Part shown: piece by piece, positions 11,057 to 46,610 of the stretch
Numbering within the stretch: position 1 is the first letter of the stretch
How the letters are laid out: every line of letters starts with the position of its first letter
Source: Lachnospiraceae bacterium
GTDB taxonomy: Bacteria > Bacillota > Clostridia > Lachnospirales > Lachnospiraceae
Assembly (NCBI GenBank): GCA_017624835.1
Contig: JAGAMG010000050.1
Span: 101,018-165,017 of the forward strand
DNA length: 64,000 nucleotides
Direction of reading: 5' to 3'
The notes under the pieces: generated by a model
Seen by the model: only the letters and a program-made list of their open reading frames with translations
What the model was told of the DNA's origin: nothing
The model's database searches: none
Translations under genes and position numbers: made by a program

Positions 11057-11083
11057 ACCTTTTGAGGAAAGGAAGCAAAGGAT

Positions 11084-11890: not shown

Positions 11891-11925
11891 AGAGCATTCG
11901 TGTGATAATATAAAAGTTTAAAATG

Positions 11926-11965
11926 AAAACCCGGAAAATGTTTCAAACATTTCTCGGGTTTTTCT
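11926..11965 (+). terminator. Terminator, possibly bidirectional
   Basis: AAACCCG stem with a second AATGTTT/AAACATT part and a TTTTTCTT tail. The complementary strand also reads into T-rich sequence, so it may serve the convergent GH3 gene too. Confidence 0.85.
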
Positions 11966-12016
11966 TAGGAGAATATATGAATAAAGAATGCACTTAAGTG
12001 ATGGTTAGTAATGCGT

Positions 12017-14098
12017 TTATATAGTGATCTCCATAGCGGTATCTGAGGAGAAACCAACGGAAATGGTAGCTCCGGTTCCATCAAAGATACGTTCTCCGGC
12101 TTCATTGACTAGGCTGAAAGCAGAAGTGGGAATGGTAAGTCGGAAGGAACCGTTTTCCCCTTTTTTCAGTGCAATACGCTGGAAGGCTGCCAACTTCTTG
12201 TTGGGAACTTCCCAAGTACTTCCATTTACATGTACATAGAGCTGTAAAACCTCATCTACATCATAAGCACTTTCGTTTTTGCAGTTGACAGTACAGGTAA
12301 TATCTTGTTTCTGAGCATCTGTAAAGGAGAAAGGTACTGCAAGATTTTCGATGGTAAGATTACCATAGGTAAGACCATAACCAAAGCAACGCCAAGGCTT
12401 TTCGCTCATATAGCGGTAGGTACGCTCTTTCATGGAGTAATCCGTGATATCCGGCAGCGTGTTTGTATTGTAATAGAAGGTAAGGGGCAGCTTTCCGCAA
12501 GCAGCAGCCTTGCCAAATAAAATATCAGCAACTGCGCGGCCACCTTCGCCACCGGGATACCATACCTGCATAATGGCTCTTGCCTGTTCCTCATAGGCGG
12601 ATAAATCCATGGGGCTTCCGGAAGCGTTAAGGATAATCACGGGCTTGCCGGTTGCAAGAACTCTTTCGACTAACTCACGCTGTACCTTGGGGAGCAGGAG
12701 ATCGGGCTTGTCACCGCTGGCAAATTCATTGCCGGTATCTCCCTGTTCTCCTTCTAAGGTAGCATCTAAGCCTACACATAGGATAACCAAATCAGAATTT
12801 TCTGCAGCAAAGGCGGCTTCAATAACCCGGTAGTTTTCCTGAGGTCTGCCTACTCGGGGCTCTTTAATCAGTTGACAGCCCTGTCCGTAATGTAATTGAA
12901 TATCCAAAGCGTCGCAGTAAGCACGGATACCTTCTAAGAGAGTAATGGTTCTGGCAGGTGTGCCACTGTAATTTCCAACCAAAGCATTGGCACTGTCTGC
13001 GTTGGGACCGATAACTGCAATGGTTTTATAATGTTCTGTTTTCAAGGGCAAGATACCGTCGTTTTTCAGTAATACGCAGCTTTTTACTGCTGTTTCATAT
13101 GCAAGTTCTAAATGCTCCTTGCAGCCAACTACGCTATAAGGAATTTCGTCCAGACCGGATTTATCAAACATTCCCAGTAGGAAGCGGGTGGTAAACAAGC
13201 GTACAGCACTGCGTTTGATTTCTTCCGCAGTAACCTTCTTTTTCTGATAAGCTGTCATCAGATGCTCGTAGGTACAGCCACAGTTTACATCACAGCCCAT
13301 TTTCAGTGCGAGAGCAGCGGAATCCTCAGGCTTCTTTGTAACCATGTGATGTTCATGGAAATCACGGATTGCCCAACAGTCAGAAACATAATGTCCCCGG
13401 AACTGCCATTTATCACGCAAAACCCCGTTCATCAAATAGTTGTGGGCACAACAGGGTTCTCCGTTGGTACGGTTGTAAGCTCCCATAACAGCTTCTACAT
13501 TAGCTTTGGTAACACAAGCCTCAAAGGCTGGAAGATAGGTTTCCCATAAATCCTTATCAGTAGGTCTTGCATCAAATTCATGGCGAAGTCCTTCGGGACC
13601 GGAGTGTACTGCAAAGTGCTTTGCGCAAGCAGCGGTCATCATATAGCCATCCTTCTTGGTTTGAAGACCTTCTACAAACGCACAGCCCAAAGCGGCGGTA
13701 AGTACAGGGTCTTCCCCATAGGTTTCCTGACCGCGTCCCCAGCGGGGGTCACGGAAAATGTTGATATTGGGAGCCCACATGGTAAGTCCCTTGTATTGGG
13801 TGCGGTCATTGTGGGGGGAATAGGCGTTATATTTTGCCCTGGTTTCTACTGCAATAGCAGATGCAATCCGATGTAATAAATCTACATCAAAAGTAGCCCC
13901 CATGCCGATAGCCTGGGGGAAACAGGTAGCAGTACCGGCTCTTGCCACCCCGTGCAGAGCTTCGTTCCACCAATTATATTCCGGTATGTTTAATCTGGGA
14001 ATGGCAGGGGCTTTGTAGCGAAGCTGTCCGGCAGCTTCTTCAACAGTCATTTGCGCCACAAGGGCTTCCGCTTTTTGGCTTGCTTCTTCTCTGGTCAT
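12017..14098 (-). CDS. Glycoside hydrolase family 3 (beta-glucosidase/beta-xylosidase type)
   Basis: 693 residues. Hydrolyses terminal beta-linked glucose or xylose from oligosaccharides; exact substrate not inferable. N-terminal barrel with KHF (K160-H161) and the nucleophile region VSDCWAI (D240), then the alpha/beta sandwich (about 340-560) and a fibronectin-III-like domain at the C-terminus. No signal peptide, hence cytoplasmic, which implies import of oligosaccharides by a transporter not in this window. A GGAGGT site precedes the ATG at 14098. It is divergent from the secreted glycosidase-like gene at 14358. Confidence 0.93.
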   Translation of the reverse strand: MTREEASQKAEALVAQMTVEEAAGQLRYKAPAIPRLNIPEYNWWNEALHGVARAGTATCFPQAIGMGATFDVDLLHRIASAIAVETRAKYNAYSPHNDRTQYKGLTMWAPNINIFRDPRWGRGQETYGEDPVLTAALGCAFVEGLQTKKDGYMMTAACAKHFAVHSGPEGLRHEFDARPTDKDLWETYLPAFEACVTKANVEAVMGAYNRTNGEPCCAHNYLMNGVLRDKWQFRGHYVSDCWAIRDFHEHHMVTKKPEDSAALALKMGCDVNCGCTYEHLMTAYQKKKVTAEEIKRSAVRLFTTRFLLGMFDKSGLDEIPYSVVGCKEHLELAYETAVKSCVLLKNDGILPLKTEHYKTIAVIGPNADSANALVGNYSGTPARTITLLEGIRAYCDALDIQLHYGQGCQLIKEPRVGRPQENYRVIEAAFAAENSDLVILCVGLDATLEGEQGDTGNEFASGDKPDLLLPKVQRELVERVLATGKPVIILNASGSPMDLSAYEEQARAIMQVWYPGGEGGRAVADILFGKAAACGKLPLTFYYNTNTLPDITDYSMKERTYRYMSEKPWRCFGYGLTYGNLTIENLAVPFSFTDAQKQDITCTVNCKNESAYDVDEVLQLYVHVNGSTWEVPNKKLAAFQRIALKKGENGSFRLTIPTSAFSLVNEAGERIFDGTGATISVGFSSDTAMEITI

Positions 14099-30334: not shown

Positions 30335-30853
30335 TTATATGTCTGTAGTAGTATTTTCATTATTATTAGAAAAGCTGTTAAACATGTCAAACATACCGGA
30401 AAAATCATTTCCGCCAAGCATACTTATAATCTGAGAAATATCAAATCCACCGCTTCCATCCGTACCGGTAGCGTTACCCGGGTTTGGCCCCTCAGGGAAA
30501 AAAGCTTTTAACATTTCCATCATCTCCATCATTTCCTGCATGCTATCAAGGCTTTGCAGAATGCGTTTTATTTGGTTAAGCTGTTCGATTTGGGAGGAAT
30601 CACAAAAGGGAATCATTTCATCAAATATTTTTCCACGGTCGATAGAAGTCTCGTGAGAAAAGCACTTTAAGGCGGCTTGTGGATGGATTCGAAAAAAGTC
30701 AATGGTATATTGTAATTCTAAAAATTTAATATATATTGCAAATTTATATTGAAGAGCAGGGGGGAGATAGGAGAGAAGAATTTTGTACATTTGAATCTGA
30801 TTATTTGTGAACAGTGTATCAAATGCCATAATTTTATCCACATCCTTTTCCAT
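30335..30853 (-). CDS. Hypothetical protein, 172 residues
   Basis: No family recognised. Residues about 1-110 look helical and conserved in style (PPALQYKFAIYIKFLELQY); about 95-112 is Met/Glu rich (QEMMEMMEMLKAFF); the tail from about 115 is Gly/Asn/Ser rich and probably disordered. No signal peptide. AGGAGAG lies just upstream of the ATG at 30853. Divergently oriented to the DUF4157-AAA pair across a 180-bp gap, so it may share regulation with it, but there is no direct evidence of joint function. Confidence 0.65.
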   Translation of the reverse strand: MEKDVDKIMAFDTLFTNNQIQMYKILLSYLPPALQYKFAIYIKFLELQYTIDFFRIHPQAALKCFSHETSIDRGKIFDEMIPFCDSSQIEQLNQIKRILQSLDSMQEMMEMMEMLKAFFPEGPNPGNATGTDGSGGFDISQIISMLGGNDFSGMFDMFNSFSNNNENTTTDI

Positions 30854-31033: not shown

Positions 31034-33421
31034 ATGGGTGGCAAGTTGACAAAAGATTATGAGCAGGAGGCTGACAGATTATCGGCTGATGCAGTAAAAA
31101 AATCAAAAAACGAAAAGGATTTGAAAAAGAATTTGGGGAAAAACTTGCAGCATGATTTTTCAAAGGTAAATATATCACATGAGAATCTGAATGGAAATGT
31201 GGCATACACTCAGGGTGGGGATATTCATTTGGATAATTCTGTAAATACCGATTCTTCTTTTGGACGGCAGGTTTTGGGACATGAGATGGTTCATGCAGCA
31301 CAGCAGTCCGGACAAGGAGGAAAGGTAAGTGTAGCGCCGGCATCCGTTCCGCAGTTTTTTCCTGACAGAAATAAGGACGGAGATTTAAAACTGAAGAATA
31401 AGTTCGCATATAGGAAGGACAAGGAATATCAGGCGATGTACGGGGCTTATAATGCGTATATTAAGGATAAGAATAATCCCCGAAAAAAAATAGAAGCAAT
31501 TAGAACCGCTACGGAGTACATGATGCACAATACGGATGTGACAAATCAAGCCAACATGGGAGAAAAACAGGTGCATCAAGGGCGTATGCAGGTTGCAGAG
31601 CAAATCGTTCATGATTTGACCATTGACAAAAATATTACGGATAAAGCCAATGCCAACGTTGATATATTAAATAATCGAGGAGTTGTTTCTCCTAAATTAT
31701 TAGCTTCAAAAGGGGAAGAGACAGCGAGAAGAAATATGGAAAATGGGGTAAATGAGCTTCATTCGGTGATTAATAATGAAGATAAAAAGTTTTCAACAAC
31801 TCTACAAACAGTTACTGCAGGAACCCTGGGTGGGCATTTGGGCAACGGTGGAACTGCAAATCTTACAGGGGTTACATTAACGAATTCTTCCGGTGTTACA
31901 CCGAAATATGATGAAAAGGGTAATGTGACAGGAAATTCGATAAATATAAATGCTGACTTAAGTCGTGGGAGTGATGTGGGAGCCACGGCGCTTCATGAAT
32001 TAACGCATCTGGCGAATGACAGAGTATATGGCAATGATATGACAATGTCCATTGCAAAAAATGTAATAGGAGAAAATAAATCTGAGAGAGATGCCCGTTA
32101 TCAGGAAAAGGCATCCAGACGCTTTAAGAATTTGAATGATTTTAATAAAGCCGGAAATTTAGAGCTTAATACTATGTTTTATGCGGGAATAAGTGATAAA
32201 TTTAAAGCACAATATGCCGGAAATAATCTGGTAGGTGCAATGATTGGAAGCGGTTCCATGAATACGGAACAGATAAATGCGGTGACAGCAGGTGTCAGTT
32301 CGGGTACAATTAAAGACCGGAATGGATTAAATGATGTGATTGCAGCACAGAACATAGCCAATCCTGAACGATTCGAGAGGGGACAATTAGGAGCAAATGT
32401 AGATAATTACATGGATTTGCTTAGAATAAATGAAGAAATGAATAGAAATAAAAAAGGCAATCTGACAACTTTGATTGAATATGATTCTAAGCTGACAGAT
32501 TATTTGTTCAGGTTGGAAACCAGCGGTAATTTTAATCCGAAAGACCCTGCTCACAGACGTTTAAAGGCCATGGTTATGGAAGCATATACTGATAGGGAAA
32601 TGCAACGGATACAAAATGAAATAGATAAGGAAAATGAGTTGACAAATAGACCCATGGATGTAAAACATAAGAGTCAGGCAGACATGGATGTTGAAATGGA
32701 TAACCTGATTAAGAAGCAACTTCAAGATGGCAAAGAGGAGCTTCTTGATGACCCCAAGACGCAGGAACATATTATGAAACGATGGAAGGAAAAGGGTTCT
32801 TCTATTGCGTCAGGACAGGACTTCACAAATGGTTATACAGGTAATGGTATGATGGCGTTCAGAGGAAATGCAGCTTGGGTTACCAACTATGGAATGCTGT
32901 TAAAACGTACGGTGACTAAGGGTGGAAAATCTGTGACAGAGATTGTTATGGAGGATATTGCTACCAGTGACAATGACAAGGATGGGGACAGGGCATGGAA
33001 TGCTATTCAGGCAGCTATGAATATTGGTGATGATATCCGTGACAATGAAGAAATGCAAAGATTTTTACGGGAGGGCGCTGAGATTTTTGATGGAAACGAG
33101 ACAGCATCCCCCATTGTAAAGCAAGCCTTTTTACAGAATTTCCTATTAAATCGTGTTTATACGCCGGAACTGACAATAACGGCAAAAAAGACGGGAGATA
33201 CAGGTATGGAAGATATTTCGACAATGCTACTTGAAAATTCCGTGCTTCCTAAAGAGAATGGAACCGCGCCACAGTTTAAGGAAGATTCAGAAAATGCCAG
33301 ATTAAATCCCGCTATGCGAATGATGCGACATGAACAGGATATTAATCGGGCGATTGGAGAGGCTCTGTGGATGGAAAAAGCGGAAGCCCCCAGAAGAGGT
33401 TTTCGCAGAAGAAGAGGATAG
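31034..33421 (+). CDS. DUF4157 (eCIS-core) domain protein with two HExxH motifs
   Basis: 795 residues, no signal peptide. Residues about 38-92 match the DUF4157 pattern found in proteins associated with extracellular contractile injection systems: YTQGGDIHLD followed by GHEMVHAAQQ, with HEMVH at 83-87. A second zinc-protease-like motif, HELTHLA, sits at 321-325. The rest (about 340-795) is unrecognised, mostly helical, ending in an Arg-rich tail (RRGFRRRRG). In known eCIS loci DUF4157 proteins are candidate effectors or cargo-processing proteins (family knowledge); here the role is inferred. The AAA+ gene starts 6 bp later. RBS AGGAGA precedes the ATG. Confidence 0.8.
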   Translation: MGGKLTKDYEQEADRLSADAVKKSKNEKDLKKNLGKNLQHDFSKVNISHENLNGNVAYTQGGDIHLDNSVNTDSSFGRQVLGHEMVHAAQQSGQGGKVSVAPASVPQFFPDRNKDGDLKLKNKFAYRKDKEYQAMYGAYNAYIKDKNNPRKKIEAIRTATEYMMHNTDVTNQANMGEKQVHQGRMQVAEQIVHDLTIDKNITDKANANVDILNNRGVVSPKLLASKGEETARRNMENGVNELHSVINNEDKKFSTTLQTVTAGTLGGHLGNGGTANLTGVTLTNSSGVTPKYDEKGNVTGNSININADLSRGSDVGATALHELTHLANDRVYGNDMTMSIAKNVIGENKSERDARYQEKASRRFKNLNDFNKAGNLELNTMFYAGISDKFKAQYAGNNLVGAMIGSGSMNTEQINAVTAGVSSGTIKDRNGLNDVIAAQNIANPERFERGQLGANVDNYMDLLRINEEMNRNKKGNLTTLIEYDSKLTDYLFRLETSGNFNPKDPAHRRLKAMVMEAYTDREMQRIQNEIDKENELTNRPMDVKHKSQADMDVEMDNLIKKQLQDGKEELLDDPKTQEHIMKRWKEKGSSIASGQDFTNGYTGNGMMAFRGNAAWVTNYGMLLKRTVTKGGKSVTEIVMEDIATSDNDKDGDRAWNAIQAAMNIGDDIRDNEEMQRFLREGAEIFDGNETASPIVKQAFLQNFLLNRVYTPELTITAKKTGDTGMEDISTMLLENSVLPKENGTAPQFKEDSENARLNPAMRMMRHEQDINRAIGEALWMEKAEAPRRGFRRRRG

Positions 33422-33427
33422 AGAAGC

Positions 33428-35494
33428 GTGAAGCAAGGAAATATTACAAAGAATATGGCAGCGTTGGGTGCATTTAAGTTGTCATGGTATATTCGGCAAC
33501 ATAATATGAAAGGCATATTTGAAAAATATTCCTTTTTATTGACCGAGGATGTGACAGAAGAGGATATTCTGCCATATCAGGAGAAACCGGAACAGTTATC
33601 CGGGGATTGTAGTATTGAACAGCAGACGGGATATTGGAAAATATATAAATTGTGCCACCATAATAAGGTGGCGATGACTGCTCTGCAGTTGTATACTCTC
33701 TGTTATATGGAAATGTCCACGCTACAGATATTGCGCTGTGTGTTCGGAGAAAGTATTCAGGGTCTTACTGTGGAAATTGCTGCCAGAATTACATATGTAC
33801 AGGATGACTATCTGGATTTATATGACGAAATGGAAGAGGCATATGAATGCTTGAAACAGATTGTTTCCATGATAGAACAGGGTAATTCGCAGTTTAGAAA
33901 TGTTTTTGTGATAGAGGACAGATTAATTGCGTTTTTAAGTGGACAAAAGCGTATGGATTGTAAGCTTGCCAGGGTGGGATGTTATATGGAACCCGCGGAT
34001 ACCATATCAAATGTATGCATTATGGAAAAGCAGATTCAGCAAACCTGTATGCAAATAAGGCTTACGGAAACAAATTCGTTAAGAATTGTACAGATTGGCG
34101 GAAAACGTGAAAGTGGCAGACGTTTTGCGGTTCGTCAGATAGCTTCTAGATTAAGGATTCCTCTTTTGCTGATTCCTCTGGATTATCTTTTTACGGACAG
34201 AGAATTTCAACAGGAAAGATGGGGGAGAGTGTTACGGGAGCTGCTTTTAACGGATCGGGCTCTTTGTGTTTATGATGAGGAGGACTGTAAAAAAGAGGAG
34301 GTAATGAGACTTCTGCCATTTTACAGAGAATTGGAAAAAAGGTATGCAAATTTAGACAGACCCCTGTTTTGCACCACGGGAAGCAGTGTGAAATTGATTC
34401 CTTTTTTGGAGGGTGCGGTATTTGGCTTTGATATTCCTAAATATTCTATTAGGCAGAGTATTTGTCTGTGGGAGCAGGCAATGAAGGAATATGGTATGGA
34501 AGAGGATGAACTTCCGATTTCCATGCTGGCAGGAAAATTACAATTGACCGCAGGTCAAATTAGACGGGTTGTGAGGAAGGCTTTTCAGGAAATTGATAAG
34601 GAAAAGCGTTCCCAGGATATTTATCGGATATGCTATAAGATTTTGGATGACGGTAAATATGATAACATCAAACGTATTACTACCAATTATACATTGGACG
34701 ACATGAAGATTGGTGCAATACAAAAAAAGACCTTGATTGAAATTTGTAACCAGATGATATACCGTCTAAAGGTATTGGATGAATGGAAAATGCGTGAAAA
34801 ATATGTATATGGAAGAGGACTTACGGTACTTTTTTATGGATTGCCGGGTACCGGAAAGACCATGGGCGCACATGTTCTTTCAAGTATGCTGGGGCTGGAA
34901 TTATATAAGGTGGATTTGTCCCAAATTGCGGATAAGTATATCGGTGAGACGGAGAAGCGTTTGGAACAGGTATTTCAAAGAGCCGAGAATAGTAATATGA
35001 TACTGTTTTTTGATGAGGCAGATGCTTTGCTGGGAAAAAGAGGAGAGGTAAAGGAAGGAAGAGATAAGTATGCCAATGCGGAAGTATCCTATTTGCTCCA
35101 GCGAATGGAGGAGTATGATGGTATTGTAATTATGGCTACCAATTTAGCTGCAAATATTGATAAGGCATTTATGCGTCGTTTCCGTTTTGCGGTGCAGTTC
35201 CCCATGCCGGATGTGATTGCCAGAAAAGAAATTTGGGAATCCCTATTATATGCAGGTGAGGTTCCCAGAGACTCTTTAGATGTGGATTATTTGGCGGAGC
35301 AGTTTGAGTTTTCCGGTGCGAATATCAAAAATGTTGTGTGGAATGCACTGTTTCGAGCTGCTTCAGATGGTATTCCACTGAATATGAAGCATATGTTGGT
35401 ATCAGTTGACGAGGAACAGCGCAAGAATGGAAAAATATGGTCCCCAGAGGATTTTGGGAAATATTACTATCTGATTGATGAAATAAATTTATAG
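33428..35494 (+). CDS. AAA+ ATPase of the eCIS-associated type
   Basis: 688 residues from GTG 33428, 6 bp after the DUF4157 gene. The C-terminal AAA+ module is complete: Walker A GLPGTGKT (471-478), Walker B LFFDEAD (526-532), sensor 1 MATN (569-572) and Arg finger region RRFR (583-586). Residues about 200-345 look like a second, degenerate AAA module (GGKRESGRR for Walker A, VYDEED for Walker B). This tandem layout and length resemble the AAA+ proteins of Afp/PVC-type contractile injection systems, thought to act in assembly. No sheath, tube, baseplate or spike gene is in the window, so it is either an orphan pair or part of a split locus. Confidence 0.85.
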   Translation: MKQGNITKNMAALGAFKLSWYIRQHNMKGIFEKYSFLLTEDVTEEDILPYQEKPEQLSGDCSIEQQTGYWKIYKLCHHNKVAMTALQLYTLCYMEMSTLQILRCVFGESIQGLTVEIAARITYVQDDYLDLYDEMEEAYECLKQIVSMIEQGNSQFRNVFVIEDRLIAFLSGQKRMDCKLARVGCYMEPADTISNVCIMEKQIQQTCMQIRLTETNSLRIVQIGGKRESGRRFAVRQIASRLRIPLLLIPLDYLFTDREFQQERWGRVLRELLLTDRALCVYDEEDCKKEEVMRLLPFYRELEKRYANLDRPLFCTTGSSVKLIPFLEGAVFGFDIPKYSIRQSICLWEQAMKEYGMEEDELPISMLAGKLQLTAGQIRRVVRKAFQEIDKEKRSQDIYRICYKILDDGKYDNIKRITTNYTLDDMKIGAIQKKTLIEICNQMIYRLKVLDEWKMREKYVYGRGLTVLFYGLPGTGKTMGAHVLSSMLGLELYKVDLSQIADKYIGETEKRLEQVFQRAENSNMILFFDEADALLGKRGEVKEGRDKYANAEVSYLLQRMEEYDGIVIMATNLAANIDKAFMRRFRFAVQFPMPDVIARKEIWESLLYAGEVPRDSLDVDYLAEQFEFSGANIKNVVWNALFRAASDGIPLNMKHMLVSVDEEQRKNGKIWSPEDFGKYYYLIDEINL

Positions 35495-35511: not shown

Positions 35512-35549
35512 AAAAACCCGAGAGGTTGTTTTAACCTCCCGGGCTTTTT
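35512..35549. terminator. Bidirectional terminator after the AAA+ gene
   Basis: CCCGAGAGGTT...AACCTCCCGGG stem with AAAAA before and TTTTT after; serves the AAA+ gene and the convergent Cys-rich gene. Confidence 0.92.
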
Positions 35550-35589: not shown

Positions 35590-35856
35590 TTAGCAGCAAC
35601 CGTTGTTATTTCCACCGCAGAAGCAGGAGATAAGCAGAATCCAGATAAGCCAATCGCAGCTGTTGTTATTGCCACAGCCATCGTTGCAACCACAGTTGCC
35701 GCCAAGGATTCCGTTGCCGTTGCCGCCGCAGCCGCCACAGCAGGATAATAACAGAATAATCCAAATAAAGTTACATCCTCCGAAGCCGTTATTGCTGTTG
35801 TTGTTACAGCTGCAAGAATTACCACATCCACAGTTGGTAGCAGTTAAATCACTCAT
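35590..35856 (-). CDS. Cys/Gly/Asn-rich small protein
   Basis: 88 residues with 16 Cys and many Gly and Asn. Two similar halves each hold a short hydrophobic stretch followed by a Cys cluster: FIWIILLLSCC (about 30-40) and LIWILLISCFC (about 70-80), so the gene appears to be an internal duplication. GGAGGA precedes the ATG at 35856 with 7-bp spacing, and a terminator follows. Similar proteins in Clostridia are labelled chorion-class high-cysteine proteins; the function is unknown, with spore coat or surface structure the usual guess. The opposite-strand frames here are shadows. Confidence 0.78.
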   Translation of the reverse strand: MSDLTATNCGCGNSCSCNNNSNNGFGGCNFIWIILLLSCCGGCGGNGNGILGGNCGCNDGCGNNNSCDWLIWILLISCFCGGNNNGCC

Positions 35857-36128: not shown

Positions 36129-36158
36129 GCAATGTAAAAATGTGGAGAGGTGAAGAAA

Positions 36159-37469
36159 ATGCTTTTAGAATTTTCATGTTCCAATTTCAAATCAATTTAT
36201 AAAAAAATAACCTTATCAATGCTTGCCAGCAGTGATGATACCAGAGAAGAGGATTTGATTACATTTGAAAAATATCGGGTAAATCGCATGACTGCGATTT
36301 ATGGTCCCAATGGATCTGGAAAGACAAATGTACTGCAGGCGGTCAGTTATGCAAAGAGAATCATTCTTGGCAGTATGAAGCGAGAACTGGGGGATTCCTT
36401 AAAAGTATTACCACATAAGTTAGCAGGAAAAGAGGAGCCAACGGAATTTGCATTTCAATTTGTAACAAAAGGAGTAAGGTATGCGTATGGCTTTTCTATT
36501 ATCAAGGGGATGATTCAGAAGGAGTACTTGTATTACTTTCCAAATAACAGACAAACTAAGATTTTTGACAGAATGGGATTGGAGGTTAGTGAAGGACCTT
36601 CTTTTAAGAAATTTTCGGAAGCGAGCATGGATGCTTTAAAAGATAACAGACTTTTTTTGGCGTGTGCAGCTAATTATACTAAAGTTTCTGAAATAGAAGC
36701 TGCATTTTTGTTTTTTAAGGAGGAGTTGAAGCTATTTAGTTCTGCTAATGGATCAAACAGAGTCTTTGGAAGAGCAATTGAATTTTTAAAAGAAAATCCG
36801 GAGCTGAAGCCCACTTATCTAAAAATTATGGATTATTTGGGAACCGGAATAAAAGATATAGAGGCTAGAGCTGAAACAGTAACATTGGAAGGATTGGAAA
36901 ATACAGATAGACTTTCGGAAGAAGTAAGAAAAATGATAAAGAATCGTGAAATAGCAGTATTAGAGAGCGCAATTTGCTATGAAGGATTTAAAACTGATTT
37001 GGAGAGTGAAGAATCTGTCGGAATCAAGAAATTATTTGTTTTTCTTTATCCTTATCTGGATGTATTGCGGGGCGGAAAGGTATTGTTATGTGATGAAATA
37101 GAAACCGGTTTACATGAATCCATAGCAATGGGGATGTTGAAGCTGTTTACACAGCTGTATCCGGAAACAAATGCACAGATTATTTTTACTACACATGATA
37201 CCAGCTTGTTGGACGGAGAGCTTCTTAGAAGGGATCAGATATGGTTTACTGAATTAGACGGTAAACGTTCAACAGATTTATATTCATTGGCGGAAATCCG
37301 AAATGTCAGAAAAACAGAAAGTCTTAAGAATGGGTATGTAAGTGGTAAATATGGAGCGATTCCCATGTTAAACAAAAGTATATTTGATGACATTGTGTCA
37401 GAATTTCAAAGCTTAAATCAGGATGAAAAATCCACAAGTTTTGCTGATGATGATACTTGGGAGGAATAG
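36159..37469 (+). CDS. AAA15-type ATPase of a probable defence pair
   Basis: 436 residues from ATG 36159, 8 bp after GGAGAGG; GTG 36150 is a poorer start. The typical beginning MLLEFSCSNFKSI and Walker A GPNGSGKT (49-56) mark the RecF/SMC-like AAA15 group. An ABC-like signature ESVGIKKLF lies at 285-293, Walker B VLLCDEIETGLHE at 308-320, and the switch His in FTTHDTSLL (H346). Such ATPases serve as sensors or activators in abortive-infection and related systems (AbiL, RloA, PARIS AriA; family knowledge). The following gene, 1 bp after the stop, encodes a HEPN protein, supporting a two-component toxin/defence unit (inference). Confidence 0.85.
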   Translation: MLLEFSCSNFKSIYKKITLSMLASSDDTREEDLITFEKYRVNRMTAIYGPNGSGKTNVLQAVSYAKRIILGSMKRELGDSLKVLPHKLAGKEEPTEFAFQFVTKGVRYAYGFSIIKGMIQKEYLYYFPNNRQTKIFDRMGLEVSEGPSFKKFSEASMDALKDNRLFLACAANYTKVSEIEAAFLFFKEELKLFSSANGSNRVFGRAIEFLKENPELKPTYLKIMDYLGTGIKDIEARAETVTLEGLENTDRLSEEVRKMIKNREIAVLESAICYEGFKTDLESEESVGIKKLFVFLYPYLDVLRGGKVLLCDEIETGLHESIAMGMLKLFTQLYPETNAQIIFTTHDTSLLDGELLRRDQIWFTELDGKRSTDLYSLAEIRNVRKTESLKNGYVSGKYGAIPMLNKSIFDDIVSEFQSLNQDEKSTSFADDDTWEE

Positions 37470-37470
37470 C

Positions 37471-38175
37471 ATGGAGCAGAATTTTGAATTAAGTGAACGG
37501 AAGGTTGACATACAGGATAAAAGGATAGCTGATATTATTATCTATCAATTGGATGCCATAAAAGGGCATTACGACGAGAATCTGGAATTAATCACAAAAC
37601 AGTTTCCTATAGCAGAGCAATTGAAACAGGAAGGAAATGTTGAAGCGGCAGAAACAATATGGCGTACACAAATTGTACTATTATCCAGCGCATTTGATTT
37701 CTTTATGCATGAAATCGTCTGGTATGGCTTGGATAAAATTTATGATGGTGATTGGCCGCAGACGGAGCAATATAAAAATCTTTCCATAAGATTAGAAACT
37801 TTGCAGACTATCATGGAAGATTTGGACAGTAAGACATGGTTTGCTGATTATATTACAGAAAAGTATAAAACCCAGACAATAATGATTTTTGGAGATGTAA
37901 GAGACCATTTGAATCTTATAGGGGTCAGCGTAGATAATGTGGCGAAAGAGGCATTTTATCAACAGGGATGTAGTGTAAAGCCCAAAGATCAAATGAAGCA
38001 AAAGCTTGATGGTTTGTATAGCAGACGTAATCGTATTGCCCATCAGACGGATAGATCAGAACGTGATGCAGAACGTCAGGCAATTTCAGATGGACAGGTT
38101 ATAACTTTCATTGAGGATGTTAATAAGATTGTAGTAGCGATTATGGGCGAAAAACGCAAACGCTTGTTGCAGTAG
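37471..38175 (+). CDS. HEPN-domain protein (RiboL-PSP-like), predicted ribonuclease
   Basis: 234 residues from ATG 37471, one base after the ATPase stop, with GGGAGGA as ribosome site; frames reaching back to 37423 overlap the ATPase and lack a site. The catalytic HEPN motif R-x4-H is intact as RNRIAH (186-191) after a helical domain with the usual aromatic-rich first helix (SSAFDFFMHEIVW, about 72-84). HEPN toxins cut RNA, often tRNA, and many are held inactive by a partner ATPase or antitoxin. Here the tight coupling makes the AAA15 protein the natural partner. Exact family membership was not searched. Confidence 0.78.
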   Translation: MEQNFELSERKVDIQDKRIADIIIYQLDAIKGHYDENLELITKQFPIAEQLKQEGNVEAAETIWRTQIVLLSSAFDFFMHEIVWYGLDKIYDGDWPQTEQYKNLSIRLETLQTIMEDLDSKTWFADYITEKYKTQTIMIFGDVRDHLNLIGVSVDNVAKEAFYQQGCSVKPKDQMKQKLDGLYSRRNRIAHQTDRSERDAERQAISDGQVITFIEDVNKIVVAIMGEKRKRLLQ

Positions 38176-38353: not shown

Positions 38354-39655
38354 ATGACACAGAAGATATATATAGTAGAAGAGCGGCAGTTTCGGACAAA
38401 AGAAGATTACGATCGTGCCATTCATGATAAAGAAATCATTGAAAAACTTCGTAAGCTGTCGGAGAATTATTCGCTGGATCAGTTGAAGCAATTGGAAAGG
38501 GCATTGCAGAGTGGAAAGTATCGTTTTTATACAATGCTAGGTCAGGATTATTTGGACGAATTGGCGGAAACGATTGAGAAGAGAGAACAGGAAGCAGAAG
38601 ATACCGGACGTGGAAGTAAGGTAAAGGGAGCGGAAAAGAAGCAGTCAAACGCTAAATCTCGACAAAAGAAGAAAAACAAGAAAGCAACTCAAAAAAAAGA
38701 GACTCAAAAGAACGCTGTAAAAAACAAAAAGGCAAAAACGACGAAGACGAAAACTGCAAAAGCAAAGGCTTCTGCAAAGTCAAAGAAGTTATCCTCAAAT
38801 AAGAAAACAAATAAGAAGGTAACTACAGAGATTCCTGAGGAGATTTTGAGACAGGAAATTCAGCGGCAGGAGAAGCAACGAAAACGTATGATTTTTTTAT
38901 GTGGTTTGGTTGCAATTGGTTGTTTGGGATATCTTTTTGTTTATTCCTATCAGGATTACAGGACAACATCTACCTATGATAAGCTGAACGAATTAAAGGA
39001 AAAGCCGGTACTACAAACAGAAAATTCCACGGAAAGCACAGTGAAAGTGACTTTGGATGGGGAAAAAGAAGCCCCTGAGGTGCTGGATGAATATAAAAAT
39101 TTGTTAAATAAGAATAAAAAGCTAATCGGATGGGTAAAAATTGCCGATACATATATAGATTACCCCGTAATGCAGACTACGGACAATGAATATTATCTTG
39201 ACCATAATTTAAATCAGGAATATGATAAGAATGGTTCTATTTTTATGGACAAGGACTGCGATGTGATAAAGCCCAGTACAAATTATATTTTGTACGGTCA
39301 TCATATGAAAAGCGGAAGAATGTTCGGTAGTCTTCAAAAGTATGAATCCGAAAGCTATTATAAAAAGCATTCGTACATAGAGTTTGACACTATATATGAA
39401 AAGGGAACCTATCAGATAATGTATGCTTTTCGTTCCCGGGTATATAGTGAAGAGGAAATCGTTTTTAAGTATTATCAGTTTATAGATGCAAATAGTGAGT
39501 TGGAATTTAACTCCTATATGCAGGAAATGGCGGCATTATCCTATTATGATACAGGAGTAACCGCTGAGTATGGCGATCAGCTTTTAACCCTTTCCACCTG
39601 TGATTATCAGGAAACGGACGGAAGATTTGTGGTGGTTGCCAAAAAGATTAAGTAA
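38354..39655 (+). CDS. srtB: Class B sortase with long cytoplasmic Lys-rich region
   Basis: 433 residues. Single membrane helix at about 179-198; the sortase domain follows outside (about 240-433) with the catalytic triad H316 (YGHHM), C416 (TLSTC) and R424 (DGRFVV), in SrtB-like spacing. Unusually, some 178 residues precede the membrane helix: a helical, charged segment (1-80) and a Lys/Ala/Thr-rich stretch (about 90-157) like a histone tail, both predicted cytoplasmic. Two large surface proteins follow in the same direction after 37 bp; the first ends in TPKTG, close to the (S/P)PxTG motif of clostridial SrtB (C. difficile), so it is the likely substrate. Confidence 0.9.
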   Translation: MTQKIYIVEERQFRTKEDYDRAIHDKEIIEKLRKLSENYSLDQLKQLERALQSGKYRFYTMLGQDYLDELAETIEKREQEAEDTGRGSKVKGAEKKQSNAKSRQKKKNKKATQKKETQKNAVKNKKAKTTKTKTAKAKASAKSKKLSSNKKTNKKVTTEIPEEILRQEIQRQEKQRKRMIFLCGLVAIGCLGYLFVYSYQDYRTTSTYDKLNELKEKPVLQTENSTESTVKVTLDGEKEAPEVLDEYKNLLNKNKKLIGWVKIADTYIDYPVMQTTDNEYYLDHNLNQEYDKNGSIFMDKDCDVIKPSTNYILYGHHMKSGRMFGSLQKYESESYYKKHSYIEFDTIYEKGTYQIMYAFRSRVYSEEEIVFKYYQFIDANSELEFNSYMQEMAALSYYDTGVTAEYGDQLLTLSTCDYQETDGRFVVVAKKIK

Positions 39656-39692
39656 ATGACGGAATTAAGATACCGTATGGAGGAGATGCATC

Positions 39693-42600
39693 ATGGCAAA
39701 AAAGGTACAGAAAAAGAAGAGTATGAAGCTTCGCAAGAGACTGCGTAAGACTTTAGGGTCTTTGTGTCTGGCGACAGCTTTATTTGTGGCGGCGATTCCC
39801 GTTCCGGAGGCAAGTGCGGATACCGGAGATAATTACCCGGATGGTACAAAATATGTAAGTAACGTAACGGCGAAGACCTTTGATACATTTACTTCGCAAA
39901 TTCCTACTGTTAAGGCGGATGATCCCATTTATGTTTCCGATGATGGTATTTTGCAGTTTGCTTATGTACCGGAAACAGGTGGTTCTAACTATATTGCAGT
40001 AGTTTTAGGATATACCGCAGGTAATTTGGAAAATAATGCTCTTGTAATTCCGAATACGGTAAATGCTTGTGCTAAGTTGAAAACCAATGATGGTACCCGC
40101 GGAGGTTATGTGGCAGTTAGTAAGAATAGAAGACCTCTGTATTATATGTCTAAACCGGCTGTAATCGAAAAAGATGTTTCCGGTAACGACCATATTATTT
40201 CACCACCAGAGTATGCTCCTTGTTATACCGAGGATTCCGAAAAATGGAGTAGCCTGCCATTGGAGGATTTCTATTATTTAGAAAATGGAGACTATAAGCC
40301 AACCATCTCTCCAACAGAGCAGTGGATTAAGAATCTTTCAGTAAAATATATTGGTAATCAAAAATTGGAGCCTTATACAGGAGCCAATAGTGGTGTTGCA
40401 GGAACCATTGAGAAGGAATGGCAGCTTGCTAATGGTGGAGCAATTATTACAGCAGAAGATCAAGGTGTATTTGCACATCAGGGTAATATTGTAAGTCTTA
40501 CCGTAGGTACAGAACTTATGGGTATTGGTAACTTTGCTTTTTATAATTGTGCAAACCTGGAAACTATTAACTTAGGTAATGGTTTAAATGAAATTGGTAA
40601 GGCGGCATTTAAAAACTGCTACAATATGACTAGTATAGGTATTGATTTTGCCTGCCTTTTACGTTATATCTCCGATGAAGCCTTTATGAATTGTACCTCT
40701 TTGGAAAGCTTCATGTTACCTTCCACTGTAGTTACCATTGGTGATAAGGCGTTTGATGGTTGTACGGATTTAACTAATTTGGATATTTCCGGTAAAATGA
40801 AGGACGCGGATGTAGGCTTAAAGAAAATTGGATATTATGCATTCAGAGGCTGTACCTCTTTGGAGGAAGTGATTTTGCCAAGCTCTATGAATGATATTAA
40901 TCTTCCGGTTTGTCTGAATGCCTTTAAGGATTGTCCTAATTTAAAGCATATTCAGACTGAAAGTAACAGTACTAAATTTGTTGATACCACAAATTATCCG
41001 GTAAATGATAAGAATTTATCTTTCCCTGTAGATGAGGATGAGATTTATTTTAAGAAGGATGTTCATCCTACTTTCTACTTTGAAGGTCCGGCAGAATCTT
41101 CTGTACATGATTTTACAAAGGAAAATGCGTTAGCCTTTAAGTATACAGGGGAAGATCGATATGAATTGGTTGATTGGGAAAAGACATATGATAATAATGG
41201 TAACCACACCGGTTACGGCGATGGTAAGCTTACCTATCAAGTAAATTCAAATAATGAATTATTGTTCTTCCAAATGGAAGGAACAATAGAGGAGGTTGAA
41301 ATTCCGGCATCAATCGGTCCTTACGGAGTTTCTACTCTGAACAAGGGAAGCTTTTCCAATAACTGTGATTTAACCAGAATCAAGATTCCGGCAACAGTAA
41401 CTCAAATTAATGATGAAGCTTTTAAAGGCTGTCATAATTTAAAGCATGTAATTTACGAAGATGCATCCACCATAACTCACATAGGAACAGATGCATTTGC
41501 TACTCAGGAAGTACCGGTGTCCTGTACTCACAAGGATGAAGCCTGGAGTTCGAAGGAACCATTCTTGAGCTTTACCGGTGCAGTAGGAGAGGATATCGTT
41601 CCTTTCAGTTATGCAATGACTTCTTCCAGTAATATTAACTCGGGAACACAGCCCCGTACCTATATTACTTATTATAGTGGATGGCCTACCAATTTGGAGA
41701 TTCAGTATGTGATGGATGATGAATCTGCAGGTACTGCAGGAAAGGCTACTTTGGTAAAATATCCTACCTATGATGCATTGTCCGCTGGTACTCAATATAC
41801 AGGAGCAAATTATCCTTATATTACTACGAAATATCAGCTGGCAGCAGCGGAAGCTATTACGCAATATAACAAGTGGTTATCCGACCCTTCCACAGAGGTA
41901 ACCGGTGATCAATGGGATATTATCAATGCAGCATTAAAGGTTTCTGTACCTACCGGTGTTAAGGCGATTGATGACGGACTTTTCTCAGGCGTGGAAGCAA
42001 GTGAGGAAACCGTTTCCGGAAGTAACGCAGCACCTTCCAAGGTACCGGTAGTTGGTCAGAAGGCAGATACTAAGATTAAAGAAGTAACCTTTGCAGATAT
42101 TGATGAGTTTGAAGCATATACCTTCAGTGGTTGTACTGCATTGGAGGCGATTAATATCACAGGCGGTAATTCAGCATTGGCAGATTATGCTTTTGCAGAT
42201 GTGGATACCGATGAAGTTGCAGGTGCAGAAGATAATGGTGGTTTATTTACTACGGTAAATATGTCCGATGGCGGAAGCAGCATTGGCAGCTATGCCTTTG
42301 CTAATAATCCCAATTTGAAAAATGTAACTTTATCTGCGGCAGTATCTGATATGGGGGTACGTCCTTTTAAGAATTGTCCTGAACTTGAAACCGTAGATTT
42401 CTCCGGTGGACCTTATTTTACCACGGAAAATGCAATTATCTATAGTTTGGAGAATGGAGCAAAGGATGGTATTGTACAGTGTTTGGAGAGCAGAGGTGTA
42501 AAGAACACCGGTGTATCCGTTCAGGCATCTGAGTCAGAAGGCGTTACCAAGATGTGGGATGAGGCATTCATGGATTGTGTGGAAGTAGGTTCCATTGATT

Positions 42601-44480
42601 TGTCCGCTTCCAAAATCGAAAGAATTCCTGCCAATGCATTTAATAATACGGAAAGCTTGTATTCCGCAATTTTACCTGTTGGTTGTAAGTCCATTACTAA
42701 GGATGCATTTTATGACAGTAATGTACGTTATGTGGATATTCCAAGCAGTGTAACCTTTATTGATCCGCAGGCGTTTAATACAGAGGATTATCTGAATTCA
42801 GAAGGTAAGTATAAGACCATTGAATTTTATTGTGAAGAGGGAAGTGCGGCAGAAACTTATGCAAATGAGTATGAAAGTGTTATGATTACGGACAAGCCCA
42901 TTTCCACAACCTTTAAGGTTATTTTCTGGGGTAAGGATATGTCCAGCATCCTTGACGAGCAGGATGTTTTGATTGGAACGGACGCAAAGGCTCCTGATGC
43001 ACCGGAAATAGAGGGATATCGATTTACCGGATGGTTGCCTAATTATACTGCAATCAGCAAGGATATGGATATTATTGCACAGTATGAAAAGATTGACTCT
43101 ACTGAAAATCAGGTAACTGTTACCTTCCTTGATTGGGATGATACCGTATTGAAGGAAGATAAGGTTACTCCCGGTAAGGATGCACAGCCTCCTTTACCTC
43201 CCAGCAGAGAGGGATATCAGTTTACCGGATGGAGACCTGCATTTACAGCTGTCACACAGGATACCACTGTTTATGCACAGTATGAGAAGATTGATTCTGC
43301 CAACAAGCAGTATATTGTAAACTTTATTGATTGGGATGACAAAATTCTTTATACCCAGAGAGTAGACCCCGGTGCAGGTGCAATTTTACCTCAGGCACCT
43401 TCCAGAGAAGGCTATGTATTCAAGGGATGGAGACCTGATGTATCTGTAGTTAATAAAGATACAGATACCTATGCACAGTATGTGCCTGTTGGTTTCGAGG
43501 ATGGAACCGGTTCAGGCGGAACCGGTAACGGAAATGGAACCGGCAATGGAGATGGAAGTGGTTCCGGTTCCGGATCAGGAGATGGAAGTGGCTCCGGTTC
43601 AGGTTCCGGTGGTTCTTCTGCAAAGTACTATACATTGACCGTTAAAAACGGTAGTGGTTCCGGTAGCTATATTGCAGGTTCACAGCCTATTATTATCGCA
43701 AACGACCCTGCAGCAGGAATGCAGTTCAGCCATTGGACGATTTCACCTGAGGATACCAAGCTTGCAAGTAAGGTGTTATCTGCCAGCGTGGTTACCATGC
43801 CTGAGAAGGATGTAACTGTTACGGCAAATTATAAGAAGGCTACAGGAAATTCAACAGTAAGTAGTAACCGTCCGAATGGTTCAAGTATTAAGAATGGTGG
43901 AACTACTGTTGTAATTGATAAGAACGGATTGTCCAATACCGGTGTGGTATCGGCTACCGTAAATGGTTCTTCCGATGATTTTGTAATTAAGATTACAGAT
44001 AGCAACAGTGCTACAGAGGAAATCATTAAGGCATTGGTTGCAGAATATGGTGATATCAGTAATATTAAGTATTTCCCTATGGATATTACTTTGTATGATT
44101 CCACCGGAAAGAAGAAGATTACAGATACCACAGGATTATCCATCAGTATTACATTACCATTACCTGATTCCTTAATTACCTATGCCGGTAACAATAAGGT
44201 GGCAGGTGTGGTGAATGGCAGATTGGATAAGCTGACACCTAAGTTTACGACGATTTCAGGAGTATCCTGTGTAACCTTTACAGCAGAGCATTTTTCACCC
44301 TATGTGATTTATGTGGATACTCAGAATTTAACAGCGGGTACAATTACAGACTCTACACCGAAGACCGGAGATGGTATTCATCCGAAATGGTTCTTATCCA
44401 TCGGTTTGGCTTGTCTGTCAGCAGTTCTCTTTATGAAGAAGGACAGACGTGTACCTGTAAAGGCTCGTGCAAGAGCGTAA
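39693..44480 (+). CDS. BspA-type LRR surface protein with InlB-type repeats and TPKTG anchor
   Basis: 1595 residues. Signal peptide at about 1-42 with a very basic start (KKVQKKKSMKLRKRLRK) and ASA-like site. BspA-type leucine-rich repeats (LRR_5, with IGDKAFDGCTDL-like units) recur between about 260 and 1000. Three Listeria-Bacteroides (InlB B/Flg_new) repeats with EGYxFTGW cores occupy about 1070-1270, then a Gly/Ser/Thr/Asn-rich flexible linker (about 1275-1310), a divergent InlB-type domain and a final beta-rich domain. The C-terminus has TPKTG (1555-1559), a hydrophobic helix and an Arg/Lys tail, a cell-wall sorting signal for the upstream sortase. Role presumably adhesion or carbohydrate binding. 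Confidence 0.92.
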   Translation: MAKKVQKKKSMKLRKRLRKTLGSLCLATALFVAAIPVPEASADTGDNYPDGTKYVSNVTAKTFDTFTSQIPTVKADDPIYVSDDGILQFAYVPETGGSNYIAVVLGYTAGNLENNALVIPNTVNACAKLKTNDGTRGGYVAVSKNRRPLYYMSKPAVIEKDVSGNDHIISPPEYAPCYTEDSEKWSSLPLEDFYYLENGDYKPTISPTEQWIKNLSVKYIGNQKLEPYTGANSGVAGTIEKEWQLANGGAIITAEDQGVFAHQGNIVSLTVGTELMGIGNFAFYNCANLETINLGNGLNEIGKAAFKNCYNMTSIGIDFACLLRYISDEAFMNCTSLESFMLPSTVVTIGDKAFDGCTDLTNLDISGKMKDADVGLKKIGYYAFRGCTSLEEVILPSSMNDINLPVCLNAFKDCPNLKHIQTESNSTKFVDTTNYPVNDKNLSFPVDEDEIYFKKDVHPTFYFEGPAESSVHDFTKENALAFKYTGEDRYELVDWEKTYDNNGNHTGYGDGKLTYQVNSNNELLFFQMEGTIEEVEIPASIGPYGVSTLNKGSFSNNCDLTRIKIPATVTQINDEAFKGCHNLKHVIYEDASTITHIGTDAFATQEVPVSCTHKDEAWSSKEPFLSFTGAVGEDIVPFSYAMTSSSNINSGTQPRTYITYYSGWPTNLEIQYVMDDESAGTAGKATLVKYPTYDALSAGTQYTGANYPYITTKYQLAAAEAITQYNKWLSDPSTEVTGDQWDIINAALKVSVPTGVKAIDDGLFSGVEASEETVSGSNAAPSKVPVVGQKADTKIKEVTFADIDEFEAYTFSGCTALEAINITGGNSALADYAFADVDTDEVAGAEDNGGLFTTVNMSDGGSSIGSYAFANNPNLKNVTLSAAVSDMGVRPFKNCPELETVDFSGGPYFTTENAIIYSLENGAKDGIVQCLESRGVKNTGVSVQASESEGVTKMWDEAFMDCVEVGSIDLSASKIERIPANAFNNTESLYSAILPVGCKSITKDAFYDSNVRYVDIPSSVTFIDPQAFNTEDYLNSEGKYKTIEFYCEEGSAAETYANEYESVMITDKPISTTFKVIFWGKDMSSILDEQDVLIGTDAKAPDAPEIEGYRFTGWLPNYTAISKDMDIIAQYEKIDSTENQVTVTFLDWDDTVLKEDKVTPGKDAQPPLPPSREGYQFTGWRPAFTAVTQDTTVYAQYEKIDSANKQYIVNFIDWDDKILYTQRVDPGAGAILPQAPSREGYVFKGWRPDVSVVNKDTDTYAQYVPVGFEDGTGSGGTGNGNGTGNGDGSGSGSGSGDGSGSGSGSGGSSAKYYTLTVKNGSGSGSYIAGSQPIIIANDPAAGMQFSHWTISPEDTKLASKVLSASVVTMPEKDVTVTANYKKATGNSTVSSNRPNGSSIKNGGTTVVIDKNGLSNTGVVSATVNGSSDDFVIKITDSNSATEEIIKALVAEYGDISNIKYFPMDITLYDSTGKKKITDTTGLSISITLPLPDSLITYAGNNKVAGVVNGRLDKLTPKFTTISGVSCVTFTAEHFSPYVIYVDTQNLTAGTITDSTPKTGDGIHPKWFLSIGLACLSAVLFMKKDRRVPVKARARA
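43496..43620 (+). repeat. Low-complexity Gly/Ser linker repeat
   Basis: Short GGAACCGG, GGAAGTGG and TCCGGTTC-type units repeated, encoding the GTGNGDGSGSG linker. Likely length-variable between strains by slippage. Confidence 0.8.
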
Positions 44481-44519
44481 ACAAAAAAACACAAAAGTAA
44501 GAGAAAGTATGGAAGGCAT

Positions 44520-46610
44520 ATGAAGAGAAAGATAAGGCTGTTCGGTATATTACTGATTGTGACCGCACTAATCATTATGCAGCTTCCAGTATCGGAAGCG
44601 GATGCGGCAACGTCTGCTTCCGATTTTAAAATGGAAGGAACTACATTAGTTAAATATCGAGGCACAGAAGAAACTGTGTCTGTTCCTAATACCGTAGAGG
44701 TAATCGGTGAGGGTGCATTTGAAGAAAATGAAACGGTTGAATCGGTGGTTTTACCCGCATCTGTAACTCATATTGAGCCCTATGCATTTTGGGATTGTGA
44801 GAATCTGGAGTCCGTGGTATTAAATAGCGGAATGACGGAAATTGGTGATTATGCATTTGCCAATTGTAAGGGTTTGAAAAAAATGACAGTACCGGACAAT
44901 ATAAGAAGTATTGGTGTACAAGCGTTTTTGGATTGCGTGAATCTGACGGATATTACCATACCACCGGAGGTTTTGTATATTCATGAAACTTCCTTTGATG
45001 GCTGTTATCGTCTTACCATTCATTGTGAAAAGGGCAGTATAGCTGATAAGTATGCAGAAGAGTTTTATGAGCGTCAGGTGGAAATGCCCGAATATGAAGA
45101 TGTGGACAATTATGGTTCTGAAGAAGAGGAAGCCGAGCCCACTCCTACACCCGAGCCTGTGGAAACAGACCCCGGAATTGCCATAGGAGATACCAGAGTT
45201 GTGGGCAATCAGGCAGTGGTGTTTATAAACAATACCAGTCTTGAGGTAATGAGTGGTAATGTGTCAAGCGGTTTACCGGCGGAGGATAATTATGTAAGTG
45301 AGAATGCCGGGGAAGTAGGCGGTTTGGCTAAGTATGCTATTGTGGATGGTAAGGTTGTGGCAGATCAGGCTTACTATAAAAATGCTACCTTGCAGGAGGT
45401 TGTTTTACCGGAAGGAATAGAAGAGGTGGGACAGTTTGCTTTTGCAAGAAGCTCTGTTGCTAAGATAAAGCTTCCGGAGGGTGTAAATACCATCGGATAT
45501 GGGGCATTTTATCATTGTGATAAGCTTGCTGAGGTTACGTTGTCGGATACCATAGAAAATGTGGAGCCTAAGGCTTTTGCCCATACCTTGTGGGTGGAGA
45601 AGTTTTTGGAAGAGGGAACAGAGGATTTTCTGATTAATAATGGCGTTTTGGTGGCTTATAAGGGCAAACAGGAAAAAGTTACTATTCCTGATGGCGTCAG
45701 GGTGATTGCTGCAGGAGTATTCCAAAATCATGCAGAGATAAAAGAACTTGTATTGCCGGATAGTCTTGTGACCGTGGGGGAAGCTGCTTTTGAAGGATGC
45801 TCTAAGCTGTCAACAGTTCTTACCGGAAAAAGCTTAAAGCAAATAAAAGACCGCGCTTTTGCTGCTTGTAATATCAGTAAGGTTACCTTGCCCAAGACTA
45901 TGAAGGAAATGGGAGTGGGAGCTTTTGAAGGTACCGTTCAGATTACATACGAGGGAGATATCCCTGCAATAACACATGAATTGTCGGCGGAAAGATTATC
46001 AAATGAAGCATATCGTGGTGTTGTGCATACGGATAATGCATCCGGAGAAGTAAGGCTTGTAGGAATGTCCGGTGTGATTGCAAGACTGGAGGGTGCAAGC
46101 AGGAGTTATACTTTGTCTATTTCAGAGGCAGAGGATGACGCTAAAATGAAAAAAGCATATGAAAGGTGCTTTGAGGAAAAACTTTCGGATACTTATCGAG
46201 TATATAATTTGTTGTTTACGGATGAGAGTAATATTCCCATTACTAAGCTTGGTAAGCAGGAGTTGGAGCTTAATATTCCTTTGTCAGAAAATCAATTAAC
46301 AAAGAATCTTTTGGTTTATTCTCTGGATAGAAATGGACAGCTGGAGCAGGTGAAAGCCAAGAGAGTTCGTATTGATGGAGTTGAGTATTTAAGAGTGGGT
46401 ATAAACTTTGTGTCCCAGATTGCAGTAGTGGAAACTAGTGAGCCTTACAGCGGAGCGGTTGTTTTGGAAGAGAATACTTCTATTGAAAAGCTCTCTCGGG
46501 CGCCCGGACAGGAAGAGGGAAACATGAAATTTCCATATCATTGGGCATTAGCCGGTGCATTGGCAAGTGCAGGTGTGATTTGTTTATTATGGAAAAAGAA
46601 AAAAGTGTAG
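44520..46610 (+). CDS. BspA-type LRR surface protein, membrane anchored
   Basis: 696 residues. Signal peptide at 1-30 (ending EADAATS), LRR_5 units (IGDYAFANCKGLK style) at about 40-165 and again at about 270-480, separated by an acidic/Pro linker (EEAEPTPTPEPVETDP, about 205-220). The C-terminus ends in one hydrophobic helix followed by WKKKKV, with no recognisable sortase motif before it, so it is probably a tail-anchored membrane protein rather than wall-linked. Starts 39 bp after the larger LRR gene with GGAAGG as ribosome site; terminator follows. Confidence 0.9.
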   Translation: MKRKIRLFGILLIVTALIIMQLPVSEADAATSASDFKMEGTTLVKYRGTEETVSVPNTVEVIGEGAFEENETVESVVLPASVTHIEPYAFWDCENLESVVLNSGMTEIGDYAFANCKGLKKMTVPDNIRSIGVQAFLDCVNLTDITIPPEVLYIHETSFDGCYRLTIHCEKGSIADKYAEEFYERQVEMPEYEDVDNYGSEEEEAEPTPTPEPVETDPGIAIGDTRVVGNQAVVFINNTSLEVMSGNVSSGLPAEDNYVSENAGEVGGLAKYAIVDGKVVADQAYYKNATLQEVVLPEGIEEVGQFAFARSSVAKIKLPEGVNTIGYGAFYHCDKLAEVTLSDTIENVEPKAFAHTLWVEKFLEEGTEDFLINNGVLVAYKGKQEKVTIPDGVRVIAAGVFQNHAEIKELVLPDSLVTVGEAAFEGCSKLSTVLTGKSLKQIKDRAFAACNISKVTLPKTMKEMGVGAFEGTVQITYEGDIPAITHELSAERLSNEAYRGVVHTDNASGEVRLVGMSGVIARLEGASRSYTLSISEAEDDAKMKKAYERCFEEKLSDTYRVYNLLFTDESNIPITKLGKQELELNIPLSENQLTKNLLVYSLDRNGQLEQVKAKRVRIDGVEYLRVGINFVSQIAVVETSEPYSGAVVLEENTSIEKLSRAPGQEEGNMKFPYHWALAGALASAGVICLLWKKKKV

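Follow-up and report, generated by a model that had tools for sequence, protein, structure and literature searches.

An eCIS_core protein and an AAA+ ATPase in a two-gene islet

The window, by which we mean the whole 64,000-nucleotide stretch of DNA analysed, from the gut-associated family Lachnospiraceae, carries two adjacent genes of types associated with extracellular contractile injection systems (eCIS), which are phage-tail-like protein syringes; the genes are separated by a gap of 6 bp. Both open reading frames (ORFs) are real as described in an earlier note made from the sequence: a 795-residue protein with a DUF4157-type N-terminus, in which YTQGGDIHLD and GHEMVHAAQQ are both present, and a GTG-start ATPase just downstream. 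A profile search, which that note had proposed, placed the first protein above the cut-off for PF13699 (eCIS_core; E 2e-10, with 41.1 bits where 22 are required). The features of the locus are as follows.

30335..30853, minus strand: conserved gene of 172 aa that borders the islet on the left and anchors the empty-site comparison
31034..33421, plus strand: eCIS_core (DUF4157) protein, 795 aa, probable payload (ATG start, PF13699 match)
31118..31315, plus strand: eCIS_core domain, residues 29-94 (PF13699, 2e-10)
31280-31294, plus strand: first HExxH (HEMVH, residue 83), within the eCIS_core domain (sequence motif)
31994..32008, plus strand: second HExxH (HELTH, residues 321-325), where the payload body may have a zinc-peptidase site (sequence motif)
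33428..35494, plus strand: Pvc15-like double-AAA+ ATPase, 688 aa, with N domain, D1 without the Walker A lysine and complete D2 (GTG start; domain search, alignment, model and tree)
34838..34861, plus strand: D2 Walker A, residues 471-478 (G471 and G474-K477 invariant in a 31-row alignment)
35512..35548, no strand assigned (called on the minus strand): terminator-like stem-loop that separates the pair from the convergent gene
35590..35856, minus strand: 88-aa Cys/Gly/Asn-rich ORF, right border of the islet (no Pfam match)

Since the 172-aa gene upstream runs the opposite way and the stem-loop lies downstream, the pair looks like one transcription unit; by eye, a T run also lies 3' of the stem-loop on the plus strand. 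The window ORFs were judged by eye from 150 aa upwards outside 24-42 kb and from 70 aa upwards inside it. No structural injection-system gene was seen among them, in agreement with the earlier note, which had reported none within 30 kb on either side, and the other ORFs look like housekeeping or cell-surface genes. These include a sortase-like gene and, after it, genes for two large surface proteins whose repeats look leucine-rich (BspA-like; 38354-46610; named by eye), an arrangement conserved in relatives.

Relatives of the flank were found in Acetatifactor, Lachnoclostridium and Lachnospiraceae MAGs, as befits a Lachnospiraceae-like organism. The pair was missing in all five relatives in which both flanks are visible (L171-L175), the 172-aa gene there being followed by the sortase-like gene; a sixth locus, L176, stops before the right flank and was not among the five compared. 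The window's 439-aa and 250-aa genes (36150-38175) were also missing in L171-L175, so the comparison is compatible both with their joint arrival with the pair and with a separate one. The pair is an islet separate from the eCIS locus, and the junction that holds it may be an insertion spot. In L174, from another Lachnospiraceae MAG, this junction holds a different, unrelated ORF of 692 aa (reverse complement, 10788-12866). A mobile element with marked ends was considered and rejected, as there were no convincing end repeats, no marked GC shift and, by eye, no integrase beside the pair.

The 795-aa protein is the only eCIS_core match in its own genome (84.8% complete), and has no obvious long disordered N-terminal leader. 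Beyond residue 94, no curated family scored over its cut-off, and no peptidase family did so anywhere in the protein; a SprT-like match (0.0022) falls on residues 8-90, and a weak match to phrog_6361 (function unknown; 0.0013) covers residues 299-329. The predicted structure was poor (mean pLDDT 45.8), being reliable at about residues 11-90 only, with pLDDT below 50 around residue 321. Searches of phage and plasmid records, of viral and GTDB contigs (by scans sensitive to close relatives only), of 60 other genomes of the genus and of 396 other genomes of the family (E up to 0.001) detected no relatives. A PDB sequence search and PADLOC both returned no match, and, outside the eCIS_core part, blastp against 41 other ORFs with an HExxHxxQ motif gave no match better than E 0.47.

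A second HExxH, a feature that the earlier note does not mention, arose by chance in 1.2% of shuffles of residues 96-795, and was present in 3 of the 42 distinct HExxHxxQ-motif ORFs of the fetched loci, the window protein included. Another of the three, from genome G520 (L170), is an eCIS_core protein that matches Peptidase_M91 (6.4e-10) and, like the window protein, lies on a non-sheath contig; unlike it, the window protein gave no match to the M91 profile in the Pfam search. From the second HExxH we infer, with moderate confidence, that the payload body may be a zinc peptidase.

Geller 2021 (PMC8213781) describes DUF4157 as a core eCIS domain that is often N-terminal in toxins. The window protein shares the layout of such DUF4157 eCIS-associated toxins (EATs), with an N-terminal eCIS_core and an unrelated body behind it.

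The ATPase and the eCIS of the same genome

Pfam recognised one AAA module in the ATPase (PF00004, residues 467-592, 3.5e-29), while the predicted structure (mean pLDDT 87.9; 31 sequences) places a second AAA core, D1, before it (strands at 219-335); at its Walker A position D1 has GGKRESGRR and thus no lysine. These results bear out the earlier description of one complete and one degenerate AAA+ module. The catalytic residues of D2 are E530, N572, R583 and R584. By sequence and predicted structure, the protein thus appears to consist of an N domain and a D1/D2 tandem AAA in which only D2 has intact catalytic residues, making D2 active-looking and D1 inactive-looking.

The same organisation of N domain, inactive-looking D1 and active-looking D2 is found in Pvc15, the payload-loading ATPase of the Photorhabdus virulence cassette (Afp15/Cis15 type). 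According to PMC11495950, the catalytic residues of Pvc15 are E555, N597, R608 and R609, an identical spacing to that in the window ATPase; only D2 is active there, and it is needed for payload loading. Unlike Pvc15, the window ATPase lies outside the eCIS locus, is one of four ATPase loci per single sheath gene, and gave no match to the PF22977 winged-helix domain at E up to 1, a profile matched by an ATPase of the genome's own contig C49 at 1.4e-16. Two fold searches with the model yielded no Cis15 structure among the matches listed, which does not speak against such a fold; the VIA-align rows cover mostly residues 375-671. Matches to the defence proteins IetA (PADLOC) and IteA (NCBIfam, 107 bits against a cut-off of 510) span the AAA core only and are equally given by the C49 ATPases, so they make no case for a defence gene.

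A complete eCIS set (sheath, tube, baseplate, spike and ATPase together), absent at the window pair, is present in the same genome on contigs C49 and C36, where a search of the rest of the genome, also proposed in the earlier note, recovered it. The C49 part extends from the contig start to about 31.6 kb, or 34.1 kb counting a regulator-like gene, and the C36 part from about 48-50.6 kb to the contig end at 66.4 kb. The last 141 bases of C36 recur exactly as the first 141 of C49, so the two parts very probably form one locus. Its genes encode a sheath, two T4 gp19-like tube proteins, a DUF4280 PAAR-like protein, Pvc16_N, Baseplate_J, Phage_base_V, GPD and CIS_tube, together with a gp25-like ORF named by eye. 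There are two ATPase genes on C49 and one on C36, giving four ATPase loci in the genome with the window included, against one sheath gene. The ATPase on C36, at one end of the eCIS, is split into overlapping ORFs of 516 and 149 aa (L035:12569-14565), which may be a real break or an assembly error. Between the pair and the end of its contig (C45) there are 28.5 kb, and between the eCIS and its outer contig ends about 48 and 82 kb, which puts the pair and the eCIS at least about 76 kb apart.

We then compared the occurrence of the ATPase, the eCIS_core domain and the sheath across genomes. Among 138 genomes of the genus (ATPase threshold E up to 1e-40), the sheath was present in 28, the ATPase in 29 and eCIS_core in 24. 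The sheath accompanied the ATPase in 27/29 genomes (Fisher 3e-25) and eCIS_core in 21/24 (6e-16), p-values that overstate independence because the genomes are related. In a sample of 150 genomes of the family (ATPase threshold E up to 1e-50, eCIS_core over its cut-off), 17 contained the ATPase, 16 the sheath and 15 both, and seven of the eight with eCIS_core also had the sheath. Further family genomes with an ATPase at E up to 1e-75 contained a sheath in 20 of 22 cases. The ATPase family therefore shows a strong association with the sheath.

The ATPase occurred with no detected sheath in G251 and G267 of the genus and in G079, G146, G525 and G478 of the family. Baseplate-type or other CIS-type genes lie beside the ATPase in G267, G146 and G525, and three of the genomes are incomplete (G146, 68%; G525, 78%; G478, 59%). 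G251 and G079, each 99% complete, remain true exceptions. Their eCIS-type ATPases (L137:9397-15238 and L068:11275-13362, respectively) are candidates for a syringe-free system or for remnants; that of G251 adjoins ORFs of 189 and 1087 aa. Conversely, the sheath was found without the ATPase in G046 and G268, and eCIS_core without the sheath in G150, G225 (weak) and G267 of the genus and in G133 of the family sample.

A tree of 47 ATPase rows, none of them from Photorhabdus or Serratia, placed the window ATPase as sister (100/98) to one from G312 (G312_C22), encoded 12 kb from its own sheath, and to a C-terminal fragment from G525. These fall within a group of 18 (100/100) that also includes the ATPases of G378 and G310 and the genome's own C36 ATPase; the G378 gene adjoins its sheath. 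The window ATPase is thus nested among ATPases of eCIS loci, a placement which argues that its type belongs to such loci and that the window genome, G054 and G180 are the cases in which it stands alone. An earlier tree, from which 14 rows were then removed (two outgroup-like and twelve close duplicates or near relatives) and to which 12 were added, had joined the window ATPase with G054_C22 and G180_C1 (98/96). The clade of always-remote "satellite" ATPases that this suggested was dropped, since with more relatives the window ATPase groups with G312, and the sheath-adjacent G378 with G054_C22 and G180_C1.

Remote eCIS genes in the genus

To place the pair in context, the 33 eCIS_core matches of the genus were sorted by their surroundings. 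Almost half (16/33) lie within 2 kb of an ATPase match; within eCIS loci the two gene types are usually adjacent. Two are on a sheath contig with no ATPase near, two are in sheath-less genomes, and 13 are on a non-sheath contig with no ATPase match within 2 kb. The last figure includes the window pair, which falls just over the 2-kb limit (2,113 bp between the domains) although its genes are adjacent. The 12 other remote genes (three in G022, two each in G154, G231 and G283, and one each in G180, G187 and G239) are single, encode proteins of 149 to 1168 aa and lie amid non-eCIS genes; some of their contigs are short, so that their real distance from an eCIS is unproved. No ATPase of the window family was found beside any of the 12 (8.5-20 kb inspected for each). 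The window pair is therefore the only remote eCIS_core gene with an ATPase in the genus set, and with a count of 0/12 elsewhere the pairing could be accidental.

Four ATPases (G054_C22, G180_C1, G041_C33 and G149_C3) lie off the sheath contig with no eCIS_core beside them. That of G054 begins 25 bases after a gene for a 612-aa protein with DUF6055, CBM_3 and its own HExxH (L036:9679-13573).

Function of the pair

The pair consists of known parts in an unusual arrangement, real and well formed, and is most likely a remote cassette. We consider it probable that this cassette combines a payload with its loader and serves the genome's own eCIS in trans. The first gene would encode the payload, with an N-terminal eCIS_core joined to a lineage-specific body, possibly a zinc peptidase, and the second a Pvc15-like ATPase, presumably a hexamer, in which D2 would burn ATP and D1 would be structural. 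This ATPase would bind and protect the 795-aa payload and thread it into the tube of the distant syringe, whose particle would accept it in trans.

In Danov 2024 (PMC11297309), 88% of EATs lie within ten genes of the operon, a figure which makes proximity typical but not obligatory. Unlike most such toxins, the window gene is on another contig, at the distance given above, and has its own ATPase. A parallel is offered by the orphan islands of the T6SS, known from PMC13098142, in which hcp, vgrG or PAAR genes with effectors lie away from the main cluster. Like these, the window pair is an effector module at a distance from the genes of the machine on which it presumably relies; it differs in having a loading ATPase and no structural tail parts, and in belonging to an eCIS. 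Searches of open-access papers revealed no case of an eCIS payload that lies outside the operon and has an ATPase of its own, and no paper on eCIS together with Lachnospiraceae.

Alternatively, the eCIS_core protein and the ATPase could work jointly in trans on other payloads, the former as their chaperone, loader or maturation protease rather than as cargo. Danov et al. (PMC11297309) propose that DUF4157 may serve payloads as a chaperone, in cis or in trans, and many eCIS_core proteins beside an ATPase in eCIS loci of the genus are short (111-183 aa, several loci). However, the window protein has about 700 extra residues without a relative, as a payload would, and other remote eCIS_core genes also encode long, mutually different bodies, one with Peptidase_M91, which leaves this role unlikely.

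Slightly less likely still is a toxin and its chaperone that stand by themselves and have given up the injection system, which was one of the options in the earlier note. Both genes are remote from the eCIS, and ATPases of this family occur with no sheath in the 99%-complete G251 and in G079; but with an eCIS in the window's own genome and a strong family-wide co-occurrence of ATPase and sheath, a few sheath-less exceptions aside, the proposal is unsupported. Decay of a second or older eCIS locus, the remnant of the earlier note, recalls the split C36 ATPase, one of the four loci, but is improbable given that both window genes are open, the D2 motifs are complete, no structural fragment was seen in the window and the site is empty in 5/5 relatives. 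Of the options in that note, a split eCIS locus came nearest to the remote payload-plus-loader cassette, with the correction that the pair is a separate islet rather than part of a broken locus.

The cassette suggests that syringe cargo can be added as separate plug-in units, and that in this family how far a gene lies from the operon says little about whether it encodes cargo. The loader studied in the literature consulted is Pvc15; with one sheath gene, four ATPase loci and a remote pair, this genome makes loader specificity, and hence the choice of payloads by an eCIS, directly testable. More tentatively, the eCIS of these Lachnospiraceae might be an open chassis that takes payload plug-ins, some with a private ATPase recognising only that payload, so that loader types would share or compete for one particle. 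New weapons could, if so, be added without touching the main locus.

Among the eCIS loci, a set of three genes recurs, consisting of a large unknown ORF, a small ORF (about 160-195 aa) and the ATPase (L033:6021-8541, L160:6502-9517, L162:10823-13765, L153:216-3868, L137:11379-15238 and L157:11113-14743). Two of the small ORFs give weak YbjN matches, and the set may represent payload, chaperone and loader. Proteins encoded beside eCIS-type ATPases at L035:10926-12170 and L069:11265-13325 gave sub-cut-off matches to PI3/PI4-kinase (0.0015 and 0.0021), and, judging from these matches, are possible payloads aimed at eukaryotic lipids.
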